The notes beneath the pieces are model-generated. The model did no database searches and was not told where the DNA came from. It saw nothing but the letters and a program-made list of their open reading frames with translations. Shown here in pieces: positions 2 to 5,515 of a DNA stretch of 64,000 bases. The stretch is from Ensifer sp. Root278. Lineage in GTDB: Bacteria > Pseudomonadota > Alphaproteobacteria > Rhizobiales > Rhizobiaceae. How positions within the stretch are numbered: the stretch's first letter is position 1; the number at the start of each line of letters is the position of its first letter. The position numbers and the translations under genes are program-made. The DNA lies in assembly GCF_001429285.1 (NCBI RefSeq), contig NZ_LMJJ01000001.1, positions 316,565 through 380,564 of the forward strand, in the 5' to 3' direction.

Positions 2-910
2 TTGATCATGCTCTCTCTCCTCTGGGGCGGCTCCTTCTTCTTCATCGGTATCGCCGTCAAGGCGCTGCCGCCATTTACGATCGTGGCGCTGAGGGTCAGC
101 CTCGCGGCGGTCGCACTGCTCGTTTTCCTGCGCCTTGCGGGACTGTCGATGCCGCGGGACCCGCGTGTGTGGCTGGCGTTCTTCGGCATGGGGCTGCTCA
201 ACAATCTCATCCCCTTTTCGCTCATCGTCTGGGGGCAGACGCATATCGCCAGCGGCCTCGCCTCGATCCTCAACGCCACCACGCCGCTTTTCGGCGTGAT
301 CGTCGCGCATCTGCTGACCGATGACGAGAAGCTGACCGTCAACCGCTTCGCCGGCGTGGTCGTCGGTTTCCTGGGCGTTGCCATGATGATTGGTCCGGCG
401 GCACTCGGCGGGCTCGGCTCGAACCTTGTTGCTCAGCTTGCCGTTCTCGGTGCGGCGCTCTCCTATTCGCTCGCCGGTGTCTTTGCCCGCCGCTTCAAGC
501 GCATGGGCGTGGCACCGATCGTGACGGCCACCGGCCAGGTCTCTGCTGCCAGCATCATGCTGGTGCCGCTGTCGCTGCTCGTCGATCATCCCTGGACGCT
601 TACGATGCCCGGCCTCGACGTCTGGGCCGCAATCGTCGGCATTGCTCTGGTCTCCACGGCGCTCGCTTATGTCCTGTTCTTCCGCATCCTGGAAACGGCT
701 GGAGTCACCAACCTGATGCTCGTCACCTTCCTGATCCCGGTCAGCGCCATTCTGCTTGGCGCGACGTTCCTGGGCGAGACGCTGGAGCCCAAGCACTTTC
801 TCGGCATGGCGCTGATTGCAGCGGGTCTGGCAGCAATCGACGGGCGACTTCTTCGCCTCTTTTCTCGGCCGGCCGTCGACCCCAAGTTAGAGTGCCGCGA
901 GAACGTCTGA
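2..910 (+). CDS. EamA/DMT-family transporter (5' truncated)
   Basis: Inner-membrane drug/metabolite exporter of the EamA family. The visible 302 residues are almost all hydrophobic segments arranged as two EamA repeats. Repeat 1 carries the LLWGGSFFFIG signature at the very start and repeat 2 starts near residue 145 (GAALSYSLAGVFARRF). Family members normally have a few residues before the LWGGSFF helix, so the true start probably lies upstream of the window. The TTG at position 2 is only the first codon available. A strong terminator follows at 935-973. The substrate cannot be inferred. Confidence 0.85.
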   Translation: MIMLSLLWGGSFFFIGIAVKALPPFTIVALRVSLAAVALLVFLRLAGLSMPRDPRVWLAFFGMGLLNNLIPFSLIVWGQTHIASGLASILNATTPLFGVIVAHLLTDDEKLTVNRFAGVVVGFLGVAMMIGPAALGGLGSNLVAQLAVLGAALSYSLAGVFARRFKRMGVAPIVTATGQVSAASIMLVPLSLLVDHPWTLTMPGLDVWAAIVGIALVSTALAYVLFFRILETAGVTNLMLVTFLIPVSAILLGATFLGETLEPKHFLGMALIAAGLAAIDGRLLRLFSRPAVDPKLECRENV

Positions 911-934
911 GCGTTCCCTTCTTACACGCATTGC

Positions 935-973
935 GGGCCGGTGGGCGAAAGCACCACCGGCCCTGTTTTTTTC
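935..973 (+). terminator. Rho-independent terminator after the EamA gene
   Basis: A perfect 10-bp stem (GGGCCGGTGG at 935-944, CCACCGGCCC at 954-963) has a 9-nt loop and is followed by a run of T residues. It ends the EamA transcript and insulates the sigma-factor cassette that starts just downstream. Confidence 0.9.
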
Positions 974-981
974 AGCTGGGT

Positions 982-1008
982 TGTCGGCTATTCCTTGCCG
1001 CCACCGTC
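982..1008 (+). promoter_or_regulatory. Predicted ECF42-type promoter upstream of the DGPF gene
   Basis: TGTCGG (982-987), a 17-nt spacer, then CGTC (1005-1008). The reported ECF42 target consensus is TGTCGA in the -35 region and CG(A/T)C in the -10 region. The same pair with the same spacing recurs at 2696-2722, and both copies continue as CGTC-Y-TTG. It lies 25 nt before the DGPF start codon, consistent with autoregulation of the sigma operon. This is an inference from sequence similarity. Confidence 0.6.
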
Positions 1009-1032
1009 TTTGTTTCAGGAGCAGGAGTTCCG

Positions 1033-1407
1033 ATGCTTTACGCCGTGTTTTGCTACAACAACGAAAATGTCACCAGTGAGTGGAGCAAGGAGCAGGATGA
1101 TAAGGTCATGCGTGACTTGGCGGCCGTACAGAGCAAATATGCTGAAGCCGGAAAACTTGGGCCGGTGGCCCGCCTGATGCCAACGACAACGGCGACGACG
1201 CTTCGGCACACTCACAGCGAGACGATCGTCACCGACGGCCCTTTCGCCGAAACCAAGGAACAGTTGCTCGGCTTCTATGTCGTCGACTGCGCGTCTATGG
1301 ACGAAGCACTCGAATTTGCTCGTGATCTGAGTTCTGCCAACCCGGCGGCCGGCTCCTACGAAATCCGACCCCTTGCCATCTACAAACCCAGTGAGCTTGC
1401 TTCATGA
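1033..1407 (+). CDS. YCII/DGPF-domain protein, partner of ECF42 sigma factor
   Basis: A 124-residue YCII-related protein. The hallmark DGPF motif is visible in IVTDGPFAETKEQLLGFYVVD, near residues 77-97. Genes of this type sit next to ECF42 sigma factors in many bacteria; their biochemical role is not established. I chose the ATG at 1033 because family members begin MxYxxxCY and a GGAG-like site precedes it; an upstream in-frame codon would add non-family sequence. Its stop overlaps the sigma-factor ATG by 4 nt (ATGA), so the two are translationally coupled. Confidence 0.85.
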   Translation: MLYAVFCYNNENVTSEWSKEQDDKVMRDLAAVQSKYAEAGKLGPVARLMPTTTATTLRHTHSETIVTDGPFAETKEQLLGFYVVDCASMDEALEFARDLSSANPAAGSYEIRPLAIYKPSELAS

Positions 1408-2678
1408 CAGACACAGCCTGGATAGACCTCGCACTCGTTTCAGCCCGGCCGCAGGCAGTGGGCGCATTGCTGCGCTATTTCCGTAATCTCGATACGGCCG
1501 AGGAAGCGTTCCAGGAGGCTTGCATCCGGGCTTTGAAGACCTGGCCGAAGAGTGGCCCGCCGCGCGATCCTGCGGCGTGGCTGATCTTCGTCGGCCGCAA
1601 CAGCGGCATCGACAAGGTCCGGCGCCAGTCCCGCGAGACGGCGCTGCCACCGGAGGAAATGCTCTCCGATCTCGAGGATCAGGAGAGCAATCTCGCCGAC
1701 CGGCTGGATGGCTCGCAATATCGCGACGACATTCTTCGGCTGCTGTTCGTCTGCAGCAACCCGGCTCTGCCGGCAACCCAGCAGATCGCGCTGGCTCTGC
1801 GCATCGTCTCGGGCCTTTCGGTCAAGCAGATTGCCCGCGCCTTTCTCGTCAGCGAAGCGGCGATGGAGCAGCGCATCACCCGCGCCAAGTCCCGCGTCGC
1901 GGCGGCCGGCCTTGCTTTCGAAACGCCCGATGTTGCCGATCGTGCCGACCGGCTCGCCGCCGTCGCAACGATGATCTATCTCGTCTTCAACGAAGGCTAT
2001 TCGGCGATGAACGGCCCGGAAAGCGTCTCGGCCGATCTCTGCGAGGAGGCGATCCGGCTCGGGCGTCTGCTGCTGGAGCTTTTTCCCGCGGAACCGGAGA
2101 TCATGGGGCTGACGGCGCTGATGACGATACAGCATTCCCGCGCGCGCGCCCGTTTCGATGCCGATGGCGCCGTCATCCTGCTCGAAGACCAGGATCGCGG
2201 ATTGTGGAACCGCCCACTGATTGATGAGGCGCTGGCGCTGATCGACAGGGCGATGCGCCACCGCCAGCCCGGCGCCTATCAGATCCAGGCCGCGATCGCT
2301 GCCCTGCATGCGCGGGCGGAACGCCCTGAAGACACCGACTGGGCGCAGATCGACCTGCTGTACCAAGCGCTCGAACGGCTGCAGCCCTCGCCGGTGATTA
2401 CCCTCAACCGGGCCGTTGCCGTCTCGAAGCGTGACGGTCCGGAGGCGGCACTCGCCATGATCGAGCCGCTGGCCGGCAAACTGTCTGGCTACTTCTATTT
2501 CCACGGCCTCAGCGGCCACCTCCTGAAGCAGCTCGGCAAGGTCCGCGAGGCACGCGTCGCTTTTGATCATGCCATCGCGCTTGCGACCAACGCCGCCGAA
2601 TGCGCCTATATCCGCATGCAACTCGACAAGCTCGACGAGGAGCCGGGCGTCGAAGACGCCGTCGTCAAAAAAAGATGA
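1404..2678 (+). CDS. ECF42-type RNA polymerase sigma factor with C-terminal TPR-like extension
   Basis: A 424-residue sigma factor, more than twice the usual ECF length. Sigma region 2 lies near residues 10-80 (LLRYFRNLDTAEEAFQEACI) and region 4 near 110-170 (IVSGLSVKQIARAFLVSEAA). About 240 residues of helical, TPR-like sequence follow, including the conserved block MGLTALMTIQHSRARARFD. This architecture plus the coupled DGPF gene identifies group ECF42, which has no anti-sigma factor; the C-terminal domain is thought to be needed for activity. No anti-sigma gene is adjacent here. Two predicted ECF42 promoters flank the gene, at 982 and 2696. Confidence 0.9.
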   Translation: MTDTAWIDLALVSARPQAVGALLRYFRNLDTAEEAFQEACIRALKTWPKSGPPRDPAAWLIFVGRNSGIDKVRRQSRETALPPEEMLSDLEDQESNLADRLDGSQYRDDILRLLFVCSNPALPATQQIALALRIVSGLSVKQIARAFLVSEAAMEQRITRAKSRVAAAGLAFETPDVADRADRLAAVATMIYLVFNEGYSAMNGPESVSADLCEEAIRLGRLLLELFPAEPEIMGLTALMTIQHSRARARFDADGAVILLEDQDRGLWNRPLIDEALALIDRAMRHRQPGAYQIQAAIAALHARAERPEDTDWAQIDLLYQALERLQPSPVITLNRAVAVSKRDGPEAALAMIEPLAGKLSGYFYFHGLSGHLLKQLGKVREARVAFDHAIALATNAAECAYIRMQLDKLDEEPGVEDAVVKKR

Positions 2679-2695
2679 AAAAGCCACGAGGCGGC

Positions 2696-2722
2696 TGTCG
2701 GGGCGGGCCGCCTTGCTTCGTC
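2696..2722 (+). promoter_or_regulatory. Second predicted ECF42-type promoter, upstream of the DoxX gene
   Basis: TGTCGG (2696-2701), a 17-nt spacer and CGTC (2719-2722), identical in both boxes and in spacing to the element at 982-1008. It lies 35 nt before the GTG start of the DoxX-like gene and just after the sigma-factor stop codon. It suggests that the DoxX gene is a separate target of the adjacent sigma factor. Confidence 0.6.
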
Positions 2723-2757
2723 CTTGGACTGAAAACGAGATCCAAGGAGAAATCCCA

Positions 2758-3171
2758 GTGAATACCAGCCTTGCCATTTCCGCCCCGACTGCCAAATCCG
2801 TCATCCTCGGCCGCGTCCTCAGTGGCGTGCTCGTCGCCTTCCTGGTCTTCGATGCCGTCATCAAGCTCGTGCCGCTTCAGGTCGTTACCGAAACCATCTT
2901 GGCGCTTGGTTACTCGGCAGATCAAAACCTGGCGCGTCTGCTCGGGGTGCTCACGCTGCTCTGCACCGTGCTCTACGTGATCCCGCGGACCTCGATCCTC
3001 GGCGCCATTCTGCTGACCGGTTATCTCGGCGGCGCCATGGCGACGCATCTTCGGGCCGGCAGTCCACTCTTCAGCCATCTGTTCTTCGGTTTCTACCTGG
3101 GCGTCATCGCCTGGGGCGGCCTGTGGCTCCGAGATTCGCGCCTGCGCAGCCTGATCCCATTCAAGAACTGA
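2758..3171 (+). CDS. DoxX-like integral membrane protein
   Basis: A 137-residue protein with four predicted membrane segments and the DoxX-like pattern: VLSGVLVAFLVFDAVIKL in the first helix, then GYLGGAMATHLRAG, the usual loop before helix 4. DoxX-like proteins are small inner-membrane proteins of unclear, possibly redox-related function. The start is GTG at 2758, chosen because CCAAGGAGA lies 6-14 nt upstream; extending upstream would read into the sigma-factor 3' end with no family match. It follows a predicted ECF42 promoter, so it probably belongs to the sigma-factor regulon. Confidence 0.8.
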   Translation: MNTSLAISAPTAKSVILGRVLSGVLVAFLVFDAVIKLVPLQVVTETILALGYSADQNLARLLGVLTLLCTVLYVIPRTSILGAILLTGYLGGAMATHLRAGSPLFSHLFFGFYLGVIAWGGLWLRDSRLRSLIPFKN

Positions 3172-3206
3172 AAACTGCCTTCCAACCGAACAAGTGAAAG
3201 TCGATC

Positions 3207-3572
3207 ATGACCAGGACTGTCGAAGATTACATTGCCGGCCTTTCCGGGGTTCCGGGAGACGTGGCAAAACGTCTGCACGCAGCGCTCATTGCCGCAGGCG
3301 GGCTCACCGATATCGTGAAGTGGGGCCACCCCATCTACGAGGCCGGCGGCGCAGTCTGCCTCCTGAAGGGAGCAAAGGATCACGTGACCTTCGGCTTCTG
3401 GCGTGGGGCGGAGATGCTCGATCTCGATCCGCGCCTGGAAAAGGGCGGCGGCAAGGGTGACATGGCCTATATCCGCCTGCGCGCCACGGACGACGTCGAC
3501 GACGCCCATGTGGCCCGCTTGGTCGCAAAGGGCATTGAACTCAACCGGCTGAAAGGCGATCCGATGAAGTAG
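3207..3572 (+). CDS. DUF1801-domain protein
   Basis: A 121-residue soluble protein of the DUF1801 (YdhG-like) family. Recognisable parts are the N-terminal VEDYIAGLSGVPGDVAKRLH helix, the IVKWGHPIYE turn (the family's K-W-x-x-P-x-Y pattern), the CLLKGAKDHVTFGFWRG strand pair and GDMAYIRLR. The function is unknown. It lies 35 nt after the DoxX-like gene on the same strand with no terminator between them, so it may be co-transcribed. Confidence 0.75.
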   Translation: MTRTVEDYIAGLSGVPGDVAKRLHAALIAAGGLTDIVKWGHPIYEAGGAVCLLKGAKDHVTFGFWRGAEMLDLDPRLEKGGGKGDMAYIRLRATDDVDDAHVARLVAKGIELNRLKGDPMK

Positions 3573-3685
3573 CGGTTCGCGAAACAAACTTGCAGCGCTG
3601 CCGGTAAAACAGAGCGCCTTTATCGGCTGCGATGCAATATCTCTTCACGGGAACAGGCATTCACGCCAGATCCCGCGAGGCAAAC

Positions 3686-4300
3686 ATGATCCTCTACTAT
3701 CAGACCCACTCCCCCTTCGCCCGCAAGGCGCTCGTCTTCGCCCACGAGGCCGGTCTCGCCGAACGGCTGAAGGTCATCCACCACGAGACCAGCCCGACTC
3801 GGCGCAACGACGAAGTCTATGCCGAAAACCCGCTTGGCAAGGTGCCGGTGCTGTTGCGCGAGGGGCAGGAACCGATCTTCGACAGCGACGTCATCTGCGC
3901 CTATCTCGACACGCTGCAGGATGGACGCAAGCTGATCCCGGAAAGCGGCGAACCGCGCTGGCGGGCGCTGCGCATGCAGTCTGTGGCGCAGGTCCTCGCC
4001 CAGACCGGCATCGGTCTTCGCTGGGAATGGGAGCGTCGGCCGGAGCACTTGCGTTTTCCGGAACTCGCCAAGGGGTATGAAGAGAAGATCGAGGAGACCT
4101 ACGATTGGCTGGAGCGCACGCTGGAGCCCGAGGCGGCCGTTGATATCGGCCAGATCGCGCTGGCGACGGCGCTCTCCTGGATGGCATTTCGCAACCTGCC
4201 ATCGTTCCGTAACCGCCCGACGCTGACACGCTGGTTTGACGTGTTCGAGGAGCGCGCCTCGATGCGGTCGACACCGCTCTCCGGTGAAACGTTCGATTGA
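3686..4300 (+). CDS. Glutathione S-transferase family protein
   Basis: A 204-residue cytosolic GST-fold protein. The N-terminal thioredoxin-like domain begins MILYYQTHSPFARKALVFAH, with S9 in the catalytic-loop position. It also contains NPLGKVPVLL with the cis-Pro and the E/D-S motif FDSDVICAYLD that binds the gamma-glutamyl group. The C-terminal helical domain runs from about residue 90. The ATG at 3686 is preferred because the GST fold begins immediately; an upstream ATG would add 18 unrelated residues. It may be the last gene of the accessory cassette and converges on hemW. Confidence 0.85.
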   Translation: MILYYQTHSPFARKALVFAHEAGLAERLKVIHHETSPTRRNDEVYAENPLGKVPVLLREGQEPIFDSDVICAYLDTLQDGRKLIPESGEPRWRALRMQSVAQVLAQTGIGLRWEWERRPEHLRFPELAKGYEEKIEETYDWLERTLEPEAAVDIGQIALATALSWMAFRNLPSFRNRPTLTRWFDVFEERASMRSTPLSGETFD

Positions 4301-4330
4301 GTCTGTAGCCGGCGAAGACCGCCTGCTGCC

Positions 4331-5515
4331 TCAGGGGCAAGCGAGGTCGGCCACCACGGCGTCGAGGATCAGCATTCCGGCCGGCGTGCAGCGCAGGCGC
4401 GAATTGCCGAGCCGCTCGATGAAGCCGTTGTCGATCAGGAACTGTTCGCGCTCCGGGTCCGGATCGCGGCCGGAAAGGGTCTGCCAGCGGGCAAGGTCGA
4501 CACCTTCCTTGAGGCGCAGGCCCATTAGCAGCAGTTCATCCGACTGCGCTTCGAGGTCGAGCGCCTCGCGTTCGACCATGCCGTGGCCGTAGGTCTCGAC
4601 GAGGCGCAGCCATTCCTCGGGCTTGCGTTCGGTGGCCGTCGCGACCTTGCCGCCGCCGATGCCGAGGCGCCCGTGTGCGCCGGGGCCAATACCCGCATAG
4701 TCGCCATAGCGCCAGTAGGTCAGGTTGTGCCGGCTTTCAGCACCCGGACGGGCGTGGTTGGAGACCTCGTAGGCCGGCATGCCGATCGATGCCGTGATCG
4801 CCTGCGTTGCCTCGTAGAGCACGGCCGATTGTTCGCCGTCCGGAACGATGAGCTTTCCGGCCTTGTGCAGGCCGTAGAAGGGCGTGCCCTCTTCGATTGT
4901 CAGCTGGTAGAGCGACAGGTGATCGACCGCGTAGGAGACGGCCTCCTTCAACTCGCGCTCCCACTCTTCGACCGTCTGGTTCGGGCGGGCATAGATCAGG
5001 TCGAAGGACATGCGCGGGAAGATCTCGCGCGCCAGCCGGATCGCCTTCAGCGCGTCTTCGACATTGTGCAGCCGCCCCAGGAATTTGAGGTCGCGGTCGT
5101 TCAGCGCCTGGACGCCGAGCGAGACGCGGTTGACGCCAGCAGCACGATAGCCGTGGAAGCGCGTCGCCTCGACACTCGAAGGGTTGGCTTCCATGGTGAT
5201 CTCGATGCCGTCGGGCACGTGCCAATGGCGAGCGATACCCTGGAGGATCGCGTCCACCGTCGAGGGCTCCATCAGCGACGGCGTGCCGCCGCCCATGAAG
5301 ATGCTGGTGACGGTGCGCGGACCTGAGAGCTCACGCACCTCTTCCATCTCCTTCAGGAAAGCGGCAACGAAACGCGGCTGGTCCACGGGCTGGTGGCGCA
5401 CATGGCTGTTGAAGTCGCAATAGGGGCATTTGGCCGCGCAGAACGGCCAGTGTACATAGACCCCGAAACCGGGGTCCATGCCGTCACCAATCGCCGATAG
5501 CGTGGCCGTCTGCAT
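4331..5515 (-). CDS. hemW: Heme chaperone HemW (radical SAM, coproporphyrinogen III oxidase-like)
   Basis: A 394-residue radical-SAM protein of the HemW family, often mislabelled oxygen-independent coproporphyrinogen oxidase. The cluster motif is in VHWPFCAAKCPYCDFN (CxxxCxxC). GGGTPSLM and the HemW-type C-terminal domain with HNLTYWRYGDYAGIGPGAHG follow. The start was set at the ATG at 5515; an alternative ATG at 5530 adds five residues. The reading frame stays open upstream to 5665 only because a palindromic repeat (5548-5593) and the 3' end of rdgB have no stop there, so longer calls would be artefacts. Confidence 0.9.
   Translation of the reverse strand: MQTATLSAIGDGMDPGFGVYVHWPFCAAKCPYCDFNSHVRHQPVDQPRFVAAFLKEMEEVRELSGPRTVTSIFMGGGTPSLMEPSTVDAILQGIARHWHVPDGIEITMEANPSSVEATRFHGYRAAGVNRVSLGVQALNDRDLKFLGRLHNVEDALKAIRLAREIFPRMSFDLIYARPNQTVEEWERELKEAVSYAVDHLSLYQLTIEEGTPFYGLHKAGKLIVPDGEQSAVLYEATQAITASIGMPAYEVSNHARPGAESRHNLTYWRYGDYAGIGPGAHGRLGIGGGKVATATERKPEEWLRLVETYGHGMVEREALDLEAQSDELLLMGLRLKEGVDLARWQTLSGRDPDPEREQFLIDNGFIERLGNSRLRCTPAGMLILDAVVADLACP

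Follow-up and report, generated by a model that had tools for sequence, protein, structure and literature searches.

Genes and promoter boxes of an ECF42 locus

In the 64,000-nucleotide stretch of the Ensifer sp. Root278 genome analysed here (hereafter the window), a YCII-family gene and an ECF sigma factor gene are followed by genes encoding a DoxX-like membrane protein, a DUF1801 protein and a glutathione S-transferase (GST), with a TGTCGG-N17-CGTC box in front of both the YCII and the DoxX gene (Table 1).

Table 1. Features of the locus, in window coordinates
Feature	Position	Strand	Basis
Box 1, TGTCGG-N17-CGTC promoter 5' of the DGPF-sigma operon	982..1008	+	Sequence, conservation in relatives
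YCII-family protein with DGPF motif	1033..1407	+	Pfam YCII, E 3.7e-20
ECF42 sigma factor, RpoE10 orthologue, with C-terminal extension	1404..2678	+	Sigma70_r2, Sigma70_r4_2, DUF6596; 85% identity to S. meliloti 4H41
Box 2, TGTCGG-N17-CGTC promoter 5' of DoxX	2696..2722	+	Sequence, conservation in relatives
Predicted transcription start, DoxX operon	2731	+	Equivalent to end of printed SMc01149 promoter (PMC6180224)
DoxX-like membrane protein, first gene after box 2	2758..3171	+	Pfam DoxX_2, E 4.2e-17
DUF1801 protein, possible read-through from box 2	3207..3572	+	Pfam, E 3.3e-15
Glutathione S-transferase, possible read-through from box 2	3686..4300	+	Pfam GST_N_2, E 6e-16

The YCII gene runs into the start of the sigma gene, and its product carries the DGPF motif at residues 68-71, as read from the sequence. 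The sigma factor has the sigma2 and sigma4-only architecture of ECF proteins (Sigma70_r2 at residues 15-77, Sigma70_r4_2 at 121-164), followed by a C-terminal extension over approximately residues 165-424 that contains DUF6596 (183-284) and matches the extension of about 200 residues typical of ECF42. TPR profiles scored against this extension stayed under their curated cut-offs (TPR_21, E 0.0012; TPR_2, E 0.011). Domains, extension and YCII/DGPF neighbour all bear out the ECF42 type proposed in the initial annotation. ECF42 sigmas of Streptomyces likewise reportedly have DGPF partners, and are said to read a promoter box of the form TGTCGA / CG(A/T)C; in S. venezuelae, the main known ECF42 targets are said to be DGPF genes.

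Box 1 consists of TGTCGG (982-987), 17 nt and CGTC (1005-1008) continuing as T-TTG (pattern span 982-1012), and box 2 of TGTCGG (2696-2701), 17 nt and CGTC (2719-2722) continuing as C-TTG (2696-2726). Spacer length is identical and both continue as CGTC-Y-TTG, so that the pattern TGTCGG-N17-CGTC-Y-TTG claimed for both the DGPF-ECF42 operon and DoxX is confirmed. Box 2 starts 17 nt past the stop codon of sigma, and 35 nt separate its end from the DoxX GTG start; the start of the DoxX operon is predicted by equivalence with the end of the SMc01149 promoter. A T-rich run just 5' of box 1 (967-973) is kept in many relatives and may raise promoter strength. By eye, 2721-2748 forms an inverted repeat, TCCTTGG...CCAAGGA, that runs from the last part of box 2 across the ribosome-binding region. 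A hairpin around box 2, likewise seen by eye, was rejected as a terminator, as the terminator search gave no + strand site there. This search also found no terminator-like site between the DoxX, DUF1801 and GST genes, which are separated by gaps of 35 and 113 nt, making it plausible that DUF1801 and GST are transcribed by read-through from box 2.

Judged by identity and neighbourhood, the sigma factor is orthologous to Sinorhizobium meliloti RpoE10 (SMc01150), which a study of 2018 classed as ECF42 with the YCII neighbour SMc01151, and both overexpressed and deleted (PMC6180224). A related locus (L071) encodes a sigma factor of 85% identity, with boxes 5' of the operon and after sigma; the first gene behind box 2 differs, being AHSA1 in this locus and DoxX in the window. 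The described RpoE10 locus (SMc01151, SMc01150, SMc01149-SMc01148) shares with the window its gene order and TGTCGG-N17-CGTC on both sides, whereas behind box 2 it has genes for a predicted hydrophobic-ligand binder (AHSA1 in strain 4H41) together with a glyoxylase-like protein, in place of a leading DoxX gene. The box is printed for three promoters of S. meliloti Rm1021, SMc01149, SMb20475 and SMc01151, in agreement with the TGTCG(G/A)-N17-CGTC form of ECF42 target promoters (PMC6180224). Since the orthologue and its promoter form are thus published, the initial annotation was wrong to call ECF42/DGPF systems essentially undescribed in rhizobia. The kind of sigma factor and its promoter are already known; our addition is a larger, conserved and testable promoter set.

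Conservation of the boxes and the genes behind box 2

Box conservation was assessed in 81 loci, comprising the window and the best 80 of 572 relatives. Within this set, TGTCGG-N17-CGTC lies upstream of the operon in 73/81 loci (77/81 with TGTCGA counted) and downstream of sigma in 50/81, whereas spacers of any other length between 10 and 24 gave, taken together, 8 upstream and 4 downstream matches in the same zones. The exact form of the box at both positions of the locus is therefore not a product of chance. The upstream box is missing from four of these loci (L089, L100, L103 and L134) and the downstream box from 31. The initial annotation had made its reading depend on the presence of the boxes in orthologous loci, and in most of these they are kept. 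When 14 hand-picked box-bearing loci, extending out to Inquilinus, were aligned, TGTCG and CGTC were invariant and the spacer variable.

The conservation of box 1 is in tension with published data on autoregulation. Overexpression of RpoE10 raised six S. meliloti genes, of which four rose at least twofold; these four lie in two box-bearing operons. SMc01151, marking RpoE10's own operon, was not raised, and its RACE-mapped start overlaps the motif (PMC6180224). Both observations would fit a DGPF-sigma operon transcribed from another promoter, with box 1 being weak or serving some other use. However, the exact spacing recurs in 73-77 of the 81 loci, box 1 ends 24 nt 5' of the YCII start codon, and it is more widely conserved than box 2 (73 vs 50 of 81). 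Moreover, a search for sigma-70-type promoters in 850-4400 found none, although this is a weak test in this organism. Overall, we consider it rather unlikely that box 1 is not autoregulatory.

The gene that follows box 2 varies. The box was found after sigma in 49 of the best 80 of 572 relatives, and automatic ORF calls, which missed DoxX in one locus (L056), placed AHSA1 first behind it in 33, DoxX in 8, SnoaL/VOC in 5 and others in 3. DoxX stands immediately behind box 2 in the window and in two relatives (L055 and L057), while four others (L058, L059, L060 and L063) carry consecutive genes for AHSA1, a second protein (SnoaL/VOC in three of the four), DoxX and DUF1801. Among ten genus genomes the box is 5' of DoxX in seven and 5' of AHSA1 in three. 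The simplest reading would be that the promoter stayed in place while the two genes nearest to it were lost, leaving DoxX first. The DoxX-like target of the initial annotation holds in so far as a box does precede DoxX; DoxX comes first in only part of the lineage, with AHSA1 the commoner first gene. In three loci (L113, L114 and L130), two small genes behind sigma resemble, by eye, an antitoxin and PIN-domain toxin pair.

Dispersed box-bearing sites

A loose form of the motif (N16-18, CGWC) has six matches in the window, where 1.38 would be expected, and 0/100 shuffles reached six. With 398 matches in the Root278 genome it is uninformative alone, and it was rejected as a means of finding the regulon. 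Exact TGTCGG-N17-CGTC occurs 36 times in this genome (14 for the reversed-pattern control) and TGTCGG-N17-CGTCYT 12 times (reversed control 3), with 11-16 sites of the latter form in each of nine genus relatives (reversed control 0-4). Based on automatically picked next genes, 11/12 Root278 sites and 109/132 sites across the ten genus genomes lie 5' of 13 recurrent targets, the other 23 genus sites falling outside them. The target families of Root278 sites that recur in the genus are VOC, PhnB, GST, RibD_C, DUF1428, DGPF-sigma, DoxX and MFS. The regulon that the initial annotation called readable is thus larger than it proposed. Between genomes, mean spacer identity is only 0.41-0.81 for 12 targets, which argues that recurrence of the box does not simply reflect recent ancestry.

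Root278 sites were ranked by a weight matrix trained on sites from relatives (24 from the upstream and 24 from the downstream position), in which the high scores of the two window sites owe something to their orthologues in the training set. Fourteen sites score at least 9, ten of them 24-47 nt 5' of an ORF, and Pfam assigns nine targets of high-scoring sites to Glyoxalase (2), 3-dmu-9_3-mt (2), GST (2), DUF1428, YCII and RibD_C. Two Root278 sites form a divergent pair, 28 bp apart, 5' of DUF1428 and PhnB-like genes, and an alpha/beta hydrolase gene has a box with one mismatch ~35 nt 5' of its approximate start. Coding-like ORFs, as judged by codon usage, overlap 27/111 sites of the 13 targets. 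ORF overlap was rejected as a filter for false sites, as 11/14 high and 18/22 low scorers overlapped an ORF in this GC-rich genome.

Two further Root278 sites were recorded. One (L166; G000:C43:306084-306112) has a TetR-like gene on one side and, ~240 nt downstream, an RND-type efflux gene on the other, both labelled by reading; it is near-identical in 8/10 genus genomes and possibly belongs to the regulon. The other (L157; G000:C40:547712) is a perfect N17 box 164 nt 5' of another YCII gene, in which CGTC is followed by AT, placing it outside the strict CGTCYT pattern.

Farther afield, eight named genomes, ranging from S. meliloti to Inquilinus, contain 10-16 sites each (control 0-6). Of the 90 sites analysed among 94, BLAST (E 1e-4) placed 69 5' of target families, and Pfam added 4 to give 73/90; the remaining 17/90 include likely chance sites. 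All 11 sites of S. meliloti 4H41 precede target families. One of the 17 unassigned sites, in Bradyrhizobium retamae (L384), lies 38 nt 5' of a gene for Ku, a DNA end-joining protein that does not belong to the usual families. Background frequencies were taken from every reading frame, using ORFs of 80 aa or longer and keeping overlapping ones; many of these ORFs are not genes. Reference proteins of the target families matched 2/240 window ORFs, namely the two targets, and no ORF in ~148 kb of Root278 sequence outside the window (0/344 and 0/259; 0/603). An N16 pattern control yielded 8 sites, of which 6 had a called next ORF, none in target families.

Site density was also compared between genomes with and without DUF6596 among 81 genomes of the order. 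The difference was not significant (one-sided p = 0.076), and site density was rejected as a DUF6596 marker across the order. Five or more sites, a threshold chosen afterwards, occur in 9/81 genomes, all with DUF6596, and in 0/45 genomes without it, a comparison that genome size may confound. Among genomes with DUF6596, 13/36 lack any site; further ECF42-like sigmas may recognise different boxes.

Might the sigma factor instead be a local switch, reading the two boxes of its own locus, or only box 2, with the scattered sites being coincidental or the property of another factor? The small published response of six S. meliloti genes (PMC6180224), the frequency of the loose motif in Root278, and the 17/90 and 23/132 sites outside target families all lean this way. 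Against this, the same families stand behind sites on dispersed contigs of distant genomes and are absent from background ORFs, and SMb20475, itself a scattered target, responded to RpoE10 overexpression (PMC6180224). We therefore regard a purely local role as very unlikely.

The scattered sites could also be read mainly by a second ECF42-like sigma factor, or by both sigmas. Root278 encodes a second DUF6596 sigma beside a YCII gene on contig C40 (G000:C40:696791-697971; L004, L038), and GGTCGA-N17-CGTC, with two mismatches, lies 54 nt 5' of this YCII match. Yet a single ECF42 sigma is reported for Rm1021 (PMC6180224, PMC10880074), while strain 4H41 has 11 sites, and a genome with one DUF6596 sigma (G013) has boxes on both sides of it and 7 sites. 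These data make a predominant role of a second sigma quite improbable, though the second DUF6596 sigma of Root278 could share targets.

A putative detoxification-type regulon

We consider it likely that an RpoE10-type ECF42 sigma reads its own operon, the DoxX-DUF1801-GST operon and about ten scattered promoters of detoxification-type genes. The boxes, their conservation and the gene set behind them are documented here at the level of sequence, and the sites most likely constitute one dispersed, detoxification-type regulon, whose direct control, signal and role we infer. In the proposed mechanism, the sigma factor with core RNA polymerase would open promoters with TGTCGG-N17-CGTC, transcribing its own DGPF-sigma operon and the adjacent DoxX-DUF1801-GST operon. 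The approximately ten scattered promoters would drive small ligand-binding or detoxification-type enzymes and an MFS transporter, the enzymes comprising VOC/glyoxalase, PhnB-like, GST, YCII, DUF1428, RibD-like reductase and alpha/beta hydrolase proteins, and AHSA1 in relatives. The C-terminal extension would control sigma activity, and the position of the DGPF gene makes its product a candidate partner.

Work on other systems offers a precedent for the latter step. The S. venezuelae ECF42 sigmas Sven_0747, Sven_4377 and Sven_7131 share a long C-terminal extension with the sigma of the window (PMC8999054), and two papers, PMC8999054 among them, describe ECF42 activity as governed by the C-terminal extension, perhaps via a bound protein. 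Pseudomonas putida ECF-10 resembles the window's sigma in its ECF42 group and its neighbourhood as described (PMC6180224), and is linked in P. putida to antibiotic stress resistance and biofilm. In S. meliloti, a heterologous ECF42 switch behaved the same in the wild type and in an ECF-free strain, a hint that RpoE10 is quiet in laboratory culture (PMC10880074).

A role in chemical defence fits this gene set, as the targets belong to families that handle reactive or foreign molecules and include an MFS transporter. The regulon might instead be real but serve ordinary metabolism, given that VOC, AHSA1, GST and YCII families have many functions; S. meliloti without any ECF sigma is, moreover, described as symbiotically normal and wild-type-like for most of the culture phenotypes tested (PMC6180224). 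P. putida ECF-10 points the other way, having been tied to antibiotic and oxidative stress (cited in PMC8999054 and PMC6180224). So does the composition of the site set, a combination of GST, glyoxalase-type and transporter genes such as detoxification typically involves. We thus hold an ordinary metabolic function to be a possible, less favoured explanation, and retain defence against toxic molecules as the preferred role.

On a broader view, for which we see roughly even chances, alphaproteobacterial ECF42 runs an old, dispersed response of 10-15 promoters to toxic or reactive molecules that includes MFS and probably RND transporters. The extension would act as sensor and DGPF as its partner, and the promoter beside sigma would be a fixed port for exchanged genes (AHSA1, DoxX, SnoaL/VOC). 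We recognised no description of a wider ECF42 box regulon in the open-access papers searched. ECF42 is described as a sigma group of wide distribution, and the rhizobial study reports six responding genes (PMC6180224), in contrast to the ~11 promoters per genome found here, which suggests that the published S. meliloti response is an undercount. Recurring in many genomes ahead of the same enzyme families, this sequence-readable promoter supplies a concrete gene list and points to chemical stress.
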